Shown in pieces: positions 56,364 through 59,326 of a stretch of 64,000 bases of DNA (the stretch's first letter is position 1; every line of letters starts with the position of its first letter). This stretch comes from Natronomonas halophila (GTDB taxonomy: Archaea; Halobacteriota; Halobacteria; Halobacteriales; Haloarculaceae). Below the pieces are notes generated by a model. The model did no database searches and had not been told where the DNA came from. It worked only from the letters and a program-made list of their open reading frames with translations. The stretch is from positions 1,178,001-1,242,000 of the forward strand of contig NZ_CP058334.1 in assembly GCF_013391085.1 (NCBI RefSeq). Reading direction: 5' to 3'. A program made the position numbers and the translations under genes.

Positions 56364-57752
56364 TTACTCGCCGTCGCCGTCCCCTTCGCCGAGCGCCGAT
56401 TCGCCGACCGATTCCTGACCTTCGATGCGCTCCTGACCGCCCATGTAGGGTCGGAGCGGTTCCGGTACCGTGACCGTCCCGTCGTCGTTCTGGTAGTACT
56501 CCAGAATCGCGACCATCACGCGCGGAATCGCCAGTCCCGAGCCGTTCAGGGTGTGGATGTACTCGGCCGATTCGTGCTGTTCGGGCCGGTACTGAATCTT
56601 CGCCCGTCGGGCCTGGAAGTCCTCGAAGTTCGATACCGACGAGACTTCGAGCCACCGGCCGCCGACCTCGGGGCCGTCCTCCATGTCGTCGCCGGGTGCC
56701 CACACCTCGATATCGTACTTCTTGGCCTGCGTGAATCCCATGTCGCCAGTACACATCTCCAGAACGCGGTAGGGGAGGCCGAGGCGTTCAAGGATGTCGG
56801 TCGCCTCGCCGAGCAGGCCTTCGAGGCGGTCGTAACTGTTCTCCGGCCGGACGAAGTTGACCATTTCGACCTTGTTGAACTGGTGGACGCGGACGATACC
56901 GCGCGTCTCGGTGCCGTGTTCGCCCGCTTCCCGCCGGAAGTTCGGCGAGTAGGCCTGATGTTTCAGCGGCAGGTCGTCGTCGGTCAGAATCTCGTCGCGG
57001 TACATGTTCGTGACCGGTACCTCCGCGGTCGGCAGCAGCCACAGGTCGTCGTCATCGTAGGGTTCGTCGTTGTCGCCGCCGAGGCGGTAGGCGTCCTCGA
57101 CGAACTTCGGGAACTGGCCCGTCCCGCGCATCGACGCCGAGTTGACCGGAATCGGCGGGAAGACGTCCACGTAGTCGTGGTCCTCGCGGTGGACCTCCAG
57201 CATGTACTGGACCAGCGCGTGTTCGAGGCGGGCGCCCTCGCCCTTCGAGAAGTAGAACCCGCCACCCGAGACCTTCGCGCCGCGCTCGAAGTCGAGGATT
57301 TCGAGGTCCTCGCCGAGGTCGTAGTGCGGAATTACCTCCTCCGGGAGGTCTCGGCGGTCATCGAAGCCCCACCGCTCGGCCTCGACGTTGTCCGATTCGT
57401 CATCACCGACCGGGGCGTCCGGGTGCGGTACGTTCGGCAACCGGAGCAGCGCCTTCTCGAGTTCGGCTTCGAGTTCCTCGGCGCGCTCCTCGACTGCTTC
57501 GAGTTCCTCTTTCAGTTCCTGGGAGCGCTCGATTGCCTCCTCGGCCTCCTCGTCTTTGCCGTCGCGTTTGAGTTCGCCGATTTTGCTGGAGACCTCGTTG
57601 CGCTTGTGCCGGAGGTTATCGCCCTCCGCTTTCAGTTCGCGCCACTCCTCGTCGATGTCGAGGATCCGGTCGAGGTCGACGTTGACGCCCTTGGTGTCGA
57701 GCGCCCGCCGCACCTCGTCGGGATTCTCCCTGACGAACTGCCTCGATAGCAT
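56364..57752 (-). CDS. serS: seryl-tRNA synthetase
   Basis: A 462-residue class II synthetase. The N-terminal coiled coil (about 25-110, KAEGDNLRHKRNEVSSKIGE and EEAEEAIERSQELKEELEAV) binds tRNA; motif 2 is SPNFRREAGEHGTETRGIVR (Ser-adenylate site) and motif 3 is GSGLAIPRVMVAILEYY. Length and order are of the bacterial-type enzyme used by haloarchaea. It ends next to the zinc-ribbon gene. Confidence 0.96.
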   Translation of the reverse strand: MLSRQFVRENPDEVRRALDTKGVNVDLDRILDIDEEWRELKAEGDNLRHKRNEVSSKIGELKRDGKDEEAEEAIERSQELKEELEAVEERAEELEAELEKALLRLPNVPHPDAPVGDDESDNVEAERWGFDDRRDLPEEVIPHYDLGEDLEILDFERGAKVSGGGFYFSKGEGARLEHALVQYMLEVHREDHDYVDVFPPIPVNSASMRGTGQFPKFVEDAYRLGGDNDEPYDDDDLWLLPTAEVPVTNMYRDEILTDDDLPLKHQAYSPNFRREAGEHGTETRGIVRVHQFNKVEMVNFVRPENSYDRLEGLLGEATDILERLGLPYRVLEMCTGDMGFTQAKKYDIEVWAPGDDMEDGPEVGGRWLEVSSVSNFEDFQARRAKIQYRPEQHESAEYIHTLNGSGLAIPRVMVAILEYYQNDDGTVTVPEPLRPYMGGQERIEGQESVGESALGEGDGDGE

Positions 57753-57857
57753 TTGCCGGCGATTCGACTGGCCCGGGCAAAGTCGTGTCGGTACCGTGGC
57801 GAGGAGTTTCAGGGTCTGGTAATTTTTAAATAGAACATTTCGATATCCTGACCACGA

Positions 57858-58345
57858 ACAGCCGGAAAGCCCTCGGCGGGGAGGCGGTCGCTGAGCGGGA
57901 TACCCTCGCTTCGCTCGGGTAGAGCCCGCTCAGCGACTATATAAACGCCTCCCCGCCTCGCCCTTTCATTCCACCAGGGACCGTGCCGGGCCTGCCCTCC
58001 CCCGGGTCGCGAGGGCCGCCACGGGCGGCCACTCGCTCCCGGCCGAGTATCTTTTATAAATGGCGCGCGCTGGCCGACCGCCGCGAGCAGTAGCGAGGGT
58101 CGGAGCGTAGCGAGACCCTCGACCGCGAACGGCGGTCGGACGGAGCCGTGCGAGGGACGACCGACTGAGTGGAGCGAAGGAGGGAGTCGGTTGGGGAGGT
58201 GAGTGGTGCGGTCGCCGTCCCTGGTGGACTCGAAGGGCGAATCTGGCTGGCGTTCAGTTTAGTCGCTAATCAGGCCCTATCCAACCGAGCGGAGCGAGGG
58301 AGGATATCCTGATTAGCGACCGCCAGCCGGCTGAGGGCTTCGAAG
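57858..58345. repeat. two inverted copies of a structured unit around a central region
   Basis: Main content of the 716-base gap between serS and the 285-residue gene. Copy 1 (plus, about 57861-57983) contains AAGCCCTC, outer stem GGCGGGGAGGCG/CGCCTCCCCGCC (57875-57886/57946-57957), inner stem GTCGCTGAGCGGG/CCCGCTCAGCGAC (57887-57899/57925-57937), a TATATAAA bulge, then TCGCCCTT and TCCACCAGGGAC. Copy 2 (minus, 58345 down to about 58212) has the same order with stems GGCTGGCG/CGCCAGCC and GTCGCTAATCAGG/CCTGATTAGCGAC: paired substitutions. Between them are a GCGAGGGCCGCC/GGCGGCCACTCGC hairpin (58009-58036), TTTTATAAATGG (58052-58063) and a CCGACCGCCG/CGGCGGTCGG hairpin. The outer parts of the gap (57753-57857, 58346-58468) show nothing I can assign. 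Confidence 0.75.
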
Positions 58346-58468: not shown

Positions 58469-59326
58469 ATGATAGAGCAGTATCTCGAGCGGCTCTTCAC
58501 CTGGGGAAGCCTCGAAAACACGGAGCGGGGTGTCGAGTTCGAGTTGAAAAACCGGCTCATCGAGGCGGAGTTCCAGGGCGTCACGACGGCGAGGTTGGAC
58601 GAGGAACCCGTTGATAAAGGGAACATCATTCTCGAACTCTCCGAGGACGAACGCTACACGGCCGACGAAATCACGCCGGAGAACCCGCTGGAACTCGACC
58701 TTGCGGAGACAGTTCAGGTAATTCTGGACCGCGAGCGCCTGCGTATCGGCGTCCACGAAATCGAGATCGGCCTGCGCGTCGAGGGGTACGGCGAGGTGGG
58801 CTTCGTTACCGACGACGAAATCACGGCGGAGGACCTCATCGACATCGACCCCGGCGGGTTGACCGTCGAGGAGTTGCGCGAGTTGGCCGACGTGGTAACC
58901 GAACCGGTCTCGCTGGAGCGACTCATCGAACGCGAGGAGGCAGGCAAGGCCCGGAAGACGGCGCTCCAGCATCTGGAAACGCGCCTACAGGAGGCCGAAC
59001 CGCTGACCGAAGAGGAGATGGTCAAGGCGGAAGTCTCCACCAAGGACACCGGCGGCGGCCTCGTCAACGAGTTGCTCGTCGAGGTGCTGGAAAGCCCACA
59101 GCGGGTGTCGGTGTATCTGGCCGCCCAGACGCTCGGCAGCGGGACGCCCGAGGAAATCTCTAGTCGCGTCGTCTTCTCGGCGGACGTCGTCGAATCGACG
59201 CTAGAATCGCTGGAAAGCGAGGGACTGGCCGAAGAAGAGGATGGTGAATACAGTGTTGCCTCGCCGGTTGCCGTCCTCCAGAAGCGGCAGAACGACCTCT
59301 GGAACGTGCTCCGGCAGACGCTTTGA
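58469..59326 (+). CDS. unknown acidic protein with C-terminal winged helix
   Basis: A 285-residue acidic protein I do not recognise. Residues 1-135 are beta-rich (GVEFELKNRLIEAEFQGVTT, LELDLAETVQVILDRERLRI, IGLRVEGYGEVGFV). Residues 150-185 look helical and charged. The end resembles a winged helix: GTPEEISSRVVFSADVVEST then LESLESEGLAEEEDG. It may be a regulator or a structural protein. It starts after the structured intergenic element; a relationship between the two is possible but unproven. Confidence 0.7.
   Translation: MIEQYLERLFTWGSLENTERGVEFELKNRLIEAEFQGVTTARLDEEPVDKGNIILELSEDERYTADEITPENPLELDLAETVQVILDRERLRIGVHEIEIGLRVEGYGEVGFVTDDEITAEDLIDIDPGGLTVEELRELADVVTEPVSLERLIEREEAGKARKTALQHLETRLQEAEPLTEEEMVKAEVSTKDTGGGLVNELLVEVLESPQRVSVYLAAQTLGSGTPEEISSRVVFSADVVESTLESLESEGLAEEEDGEYSVASPVAVLQKRQNDLWNVLRQTL

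Follow-up and report, generated by a model that had tools for sequence, protein, structure and literature searches.

What does a pair of facing, foldable sequence units represent when it lies between two divergently oriented genes of a haloarchaeal chromosome? The window analysed here, a 64,000-nucleotide stretch of the Natronomonas halophila genome (NZ_CP058334.1, positions 1,178,001 to 1,242,000), holds one such pair, unit A at 57864-57981 on the forward strand and unit B at 58217-58343 on the reverse strand. A preliminary description had placed the two units here at a distance of about 230 bases; the gap is 235 bases, and the stems, the loop and the common blocks it listed are all present in the window sequence. 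The left neighbour, serS (56364-57752, reverse strand; PF02403 at 1.8e-30 and PF00587 at 9.8e-36), and the right neighbour, a gene for a 285-aa protein (58469-59326, forward strand; HMG-CoA_red_N, PF25653, at 6.5e-27, and a weak TrmB-like HTH), both point away from the element.

The units share one order of folding. Inside an outermost stem (P1) comes an internal loop that does not vary (CCCTC/TCGCC), then the variable stem P2 and stem P3; a small internal loop separates P3 from P4, which bears the apical loop. A bulge of 8-9 nt lies on the 3' side of the unit between P2 and P3, a conserved tail (ANTCCRCCAGG) closes each unit, and some copies carry additional hairpin modules between P2 and the tail. 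In unit A, which matches the covariance model with 136 bits (E 3.7e-36), P1 pairs GAAAG (57865-57869) with CTTTC (57963-57967), the internal loop sets CCCTC (57870-57874) opposite TCGCC (57958-57962), P2 occupies 57875-57886 and 57946-57957, and P3 (57887-57899 and 57925-57937) encloses P4 and the apical loop, followed by the bulge TATATAAA (57938-57945) and, beyond the closing arms, the tail ATTCCACCAGGGAC (57968-57981). Unit B, likewise matched by the covariance model, repeats this architecture on the other strand, with P1 CGAAG/CTTCG (forward-strand positions 58338-58342 and 58231-58235), P2 GGCTGGCG/CGCCAGCC, P3 GTCGCTAATCAGG/CCTGATTAGCGAC and the tail at 58217-58230. The outermost stem thus covaries between A and B as well, and the blocks AAGCCCTC and TCGCCCTT consist partly of this stem and partly of the invariant internal loop. 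Against dinucleotide shuffles the folding z-scores are -5.3 (A) and -3.8 (B), with none of 200 shuffles equalling either unit.

Between the units lies a core (57982-58216) that is conserved in other copies of the same genome as CTGCCCT.CCCC.GGGTCG ... CTCCCGGCC ... TTTTATAAAT ... GAGGGACGACCGA ... GGAGGGAGTCGGTTGGGGAGG. The TATA-like TTTTATAAAT (58052-58061) is present in most own-genome copies and was not seen in the copies inspected from the genomes G010, G208 and G299. The core is flipped relative to A and B in two copies (L012, L015). Outside unit A, the forward-strand flank TTTTTAAATAGAACATTTCGATATCCTGACCACGAACAGCC (57823-57863) is a diverged version of one common to other copies, TTTATAAA..GAGCTTGGCGACT.CCTGACCGCAAACAGCC.

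The element belongs to a large and unevenly distributed family. A 24-base tail pattern occurs at 31 places in the 3.2-Mb genome that holds the window, where the covariance model recovers about 39 units, usually as an A facing a B around a core of ~190-280 nt; in G010 the facing units are both of A type, 24 nt apart, and the core is absent. The homologs expected in other haloarchaea do exist, with exact pattern matches in 104 of 392 genomes and 41 of 95 genera of the order, and a reversed-pattern control near zero. Single species show bursts (141 matches in G299 and 126 in G208, one mismatch allowed), while their congeners have none. Rfam returned no match at either threshold (best E 1.2, far below gathering), in keeping with the earlier statement that no described family fits, as far as Rfam goes, and we found no earlier description of the element in the literature (open-licence PMC papers). 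Tandem arrays of 50-70 bp occur in the outer flanks of nine copies (L088, L090, L143, L147, L148, L158, L179, L272 and L275); they are composed of flank joined to the initial ~18-20 nt of the unit (the P1 5' arm, CCCTC and half a P2 arm), and the joints read CTAG in the genus labelled g23 and in G012.

The compensatory change between A and B is no artefact of comparing two copies. Across 23 own-genome units, 96.6% of the cells in 37 pairs are paired, and 21 pairs are changed on both sides, in 113 such cells; none of 500 shuffles and no slid control came near the observed value.

Comparison of orthologous sites indicates that the units are acquired, and in some lineages retained for long periods. 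In relatives, serS and the right-hand gene are ~100 bp apart at the window site, with no element between them, and the window copy is therefore an insertion. No target-site duplication was seen, the nearest relatives being too diverged at this site. Within genus g23, the element occupies one locus in G310, G384, G402, G401 and G370 and is present there as a relic in G333, and seven other genomes of the genus have a short, element-free intergenic region there; a second element-bearing locus is common to G310, G370, G384 and G393. At these loci the element is ~85% identical and the flanking intergenic sequence is past alignment by eye. Their orthologous stems show compensatory changes (A-T to G-C, G-C to T-A and C-G to G-C) and also uncompensated ones. 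The preliminary description would have yielded if no other genome carried the blocks or if homologs had unpaired stem substitutions; the blocks are found in other genomes, and uncompensated changes exist, so that this test told against it in part only. At another locus (L169), collinearity was absent in relatives.

The likely meaning of the element changes with a plasmid homolog that the preliminary description, made from the window's letters, could not have seen. The G010 unit matches 92 plasmid records, and the ~570-bp noncoding region that it heads is present in 167 haloarchaeal plasmid records (83 with at least 80% coverage), conserved across more than 40 genera. Fourteen of 16 inspected copies adjoin a gene whose product has 286-299 aa and is variously annotated as replication factor A, OB-fold, DNA-binding or hypothetical protein; of the remainder, one abuts a TFIIB-family gene and one is partial. 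Three of the adjoining proteins match the NCBIfam replication factor A model at 2e-19, 2.4e-18 and 5.7e-14, all below its cut-off; Pfam OB-fold models are matched weakly by several, and a comparison of two members gave 60% identity. It is on its complement, the strand that serves as template for the RPA-like gene, that the plasmid unit folds well (94% Watson-Crick); folding of the written strand is poor. The plasmid region holds one unit and no facing pair, and the chromosomal core is without a recognised plasmid counterpart. A partial copy of this region, 80% identical, also lies in the window's own genome (G000:C1:2901563-2901945, L303).

On pJ7-1 (NC_018225.1), a single strand carries in succession TrbL/VirB6, a HerA-like ATPase, a primase, the hairpin region, the RPA-like gene, TFIIB and, later, ArdC, and these surroundings are a candidate haloarchaeal leading region. 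The same plasmid has a BREX-5 system around the hairpin region (L316, L317). An MPF_T tag is borne by 9 of the 16 inspected plasmids, PLSDB types the plasmids as non-mobilizable, and neither a relaxase nor an oriT was identified on them. A viral origin was considered and set aside: the 570-bp region is in no phage record and the tail pattern in no viral contig.

Could the whole be an ordinary MITE- or REPIN-like element, with long inverted repeats, subterminal hairpins and a transposase supplied in trans, that has no part in plasmid or single-strand initiation and of which the plasmid hairpin is merely a captured copy? The mobile-element option of the preliminary description gains from the ~39 units, the single-species bursts and the element-free orthologous sites, and the inverted pairing and intergenic siting fit this explanation, as do the IS-like terminal sequences TGTCATAGAACG and GTGTTCAGATAAG in the outer flanks of other species. 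Presence and absence at orthologous sites, as in MITEs, was observed directly; as to terminal inverted repeats shared with a transposon, IS-like ends were seen in some species. However, the flanking terminal sequences vary by genus while the hairpin unit stays constant, the unit has a fixed place beside the RPA-like gene on plasmids of many genera, the two g23 loci are kept across several species with compensatory changes arising in situ, and neither a target-site duplication nor a transposase partner was found. We therefore regard this explanation as a serious contender, yet on balance an unlikely one.

Several observations concern the ends themselves. In six loci of other species (L028, L035, L038, L078, L086 and L087), units lie within sequences that have the IS-like terminal repeats GTGTTCAGATAAG and TGTCATAGAACG, and it looks as if several MITE types carry one common hairpin. 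The shared terminal repeat GGTCAGTACAG was followed as a lead to a transposase and abandoned: it has 5 and 13 exact sites only, none tied to a transposase. CTAG, a rare word with a background of 0.36 per kb, occurs 30-130 bp outside 16 of 36 own-genome units (copies L009-L027); the distance is 47-73 bp in most cases, and the word frequently extends to CTAGG. We did not adopt it as an insertion target, because the enrichment at 47-73 bp holds in this genome and not elsewhere.

The units resemble REP/REPIN elements (BIMEs), the partners of RAYT transposases, in being two inverted palindromic hairpin units that are dispersed, intergenic and present in many copies in single species. They differ in being 110-240 nt long with several helices and variable stems, compared with the 20-40 bp given for REPs in the part of the source available (PMC3733652), and no GTAG or CGTC tag of REP elements was recognised in them. 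The MITEs, SMRs and PATEs of Haloquadratum, compared by description only, are likewise transposase-free haloarchaeal repeats, and the text available to us describes SMRs with unrelated terminal inverted repeats and no target duplication, and PATEs with near-terminal palindromes (PMC3119063). In that same portion of the source, SMR-A is ~110 bp, PATEs are without inverted terminal repeats, and an association with plasmid single-stranded-DNA genes is not described (PMC3119063).

Another possibility is a structured non-coding RNA made from the purine-rich strand (the complement of the strand as written), for example as two divergent transcripts off the central TATA-like site. Purine-rich internal loops with tandem GA mismatches on one strand, and the TATA-like site in the core of own-genome copies, would suit it. 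The pairing itself argues otherwise. GU makes up 2 of 828 cells and AC 5 of 828 in the own-genome units on the written strand, and GU 10 of 873 on the complement, that is, wobble in 0.2-1.2% of pair cells, compared with 10.6% (269 of 2529, with 210 both-sided cells) in 27 SRP RNAs of the clade handled in the same way; SRP RNA served as the control, the tRNA set being too small. Wobble stays at 1.0-1.4% on either strand among 62 units from several genera. On the complement it rises to 4.5-4.7% in plasmid units (GT in 21 of 466 cells) and in alternative-type units (38 of 808), in both of which GT exceeds AC on the purine-rich strand, a point in favour of RNA. The structures that RNAalifold selects are biased towards wobble on whichever strand it folds. 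In the own-genome units, GU wobble is scarcely used as an intermediate in the covarying stems.

Mismatches and loops bear on the same question. The mismatches tolerated in own-genome units, as written, are CC (12) and AC (10) versus GG (2) and GT (2), mainly those that are stable on the complement; in the wider set this strand asymmetry is weak, conserved CC mismatches apart. A raw count of perfect triloops is uninformative because the apical stems hold GA mismatches, so apical loops were recounted on the aligned set: on the complement, 45 of 50 odd loops are GNA, all four bases occurring as N, with C-G as the closing pair in nearly every case. Hairpins of the type d(GCGNAGC) are unusually stable in DNA. 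On the purine-rich strand, moreover, mismatches of the GA type stand where the written strand has the invariant internal loop and the apical TC/TC mismatches. The low wobble, the GNA loops and the GA-type mismatches thus indicate a DNA fold on the purine-rich strand, which we consider well supported, and the strand on which unit A folds is presumably the complement of the written one. Divergent RNAs driven by the central TATA were dropped as a general mechanism because the G010 copies, with spacers of 24 nt, have neither core nor TATA. With no Rfam match either, the structured-RNA option of the preliminary description is disfavoured, and an RNA reading of the fold seems quite improbable.

A further alternative holds that the covariation is mutational, arising by hairpin-templated (quasi-palindrome) correction or by recombination between copies, with the fold itself unselected. 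Intermediates are nearly absent, entire hairpin modules have been inserted and swapped between copies, and one unit in G310 is a hybrid whose arms derive from two lineages, all of which would follow. The preliminary description took covariation to mean that the folded form is selected; the fold is indeed conserved, but the claim was too strong, since hairpin-templated replication correction could match the changes. Nevertheless, this alternative leaves the invariant internal loop, the tail, the GNA loops and the plasmid location unexplained, and orthologs show the stepwise mismatched intermediates (AC, CC) expected of single changes, so we give it slightly less credence than the RNA explanation. 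A transcription terminator or gene-boundary element can be all but dismissed: several copies lie between gene 3' ends and most G010 copies between convergent genes, but other copies, that of the window included, have divergent genes on either side, and neighbours are unchanged in relatives without the element.

We tentatively favour, with somewhat less than even confidence, a single-stranded-DNA hairpin signal on the purine-rich strand, analogous to Frpo/ssi; on chromosomes, its facing pairs would make up a non-autonomous element with sporadic amplification. In the plasmid case, an incoming strand, once folded, would initiate either transcription or the synthesis of the complementary strand across the region that holds the RPA-like, TFIIB-like and ArdC genes; since the plasmid tail is directed at the RPA-like gene, a start at the folded strand would enter that gene. 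Because the chromosomal units face each other, either strand, once single, would bear one correctly folded unit, and because both tails point inward, each strand has one folding-sense unit at its 3' side. Synthesis or transcription from a chromosomal unit would span the core and the other unit. Some lineages would have amplified this non-autonomous paired form, and others would have kept it for long times. Both the initiation function and a mobilising enzyme are presumed in this proposal.

In bacteria, SSB genes directly follow Frpo, which SSB stimulates (PMC11541004). The plasmid homolog is similar in being noncoding DNA predicted to fold single-stranded, directly upstream of the gene for a putative single-stranded-DNA-binding protein; in pJ7-1, the one plasmid examined fully, ArdC follows further along the same strand, and transfer genes precede the hairpin region. 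This combination of foldable noncoding DNA, single-stranded-DNA-binding gene and conjugation genes was found at the plasmid homolog and not at the chromosomal window copy. The present hairpin differs in being archaeal, in its putative promoter role, in lacking a recognised duplex promoter mimic and in having dispersed, paired chromosomal relatives. Integron attC sites are recombinogenic single-stranded-DNA hairpins with variable stems and conserved unpaired positions. Our units share the last two properties, but differ in layout and show neither an integrase link nor R/L boxes.

The link of dispersed chromosomal hairpin pairs to a plasmid hairpin before an RPA-like gene is new. We know of no archaeal single-stranded-DNA promoter or single-strand origin. 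It is conceivable, if doubtful, that the plasmid unit serves conjugative haloarchaeal plasmids as a folded promoter or priming site of their leading region, the first archaeal single-stranded-DNA initiation signal, and that the inverted chromosomal pairs act on either strand, allowing the cell to copy or express chromosomal DNA that it has acquired single-stranded by uptake or transfer. Covariation that is poor in wobble and capped by GNA loops provides a usable criterion for separating DNA-level from RNA structure in genome scans. As the plasmid region is kept across many genera, beside a gene that points to single-stranded DNA, the question is directly testable. It bears on how haloarchaeal plasmids and mating cells handle DNA that enters as a single strand, and the hairpins may let cells cope with DNA arriving in that form.
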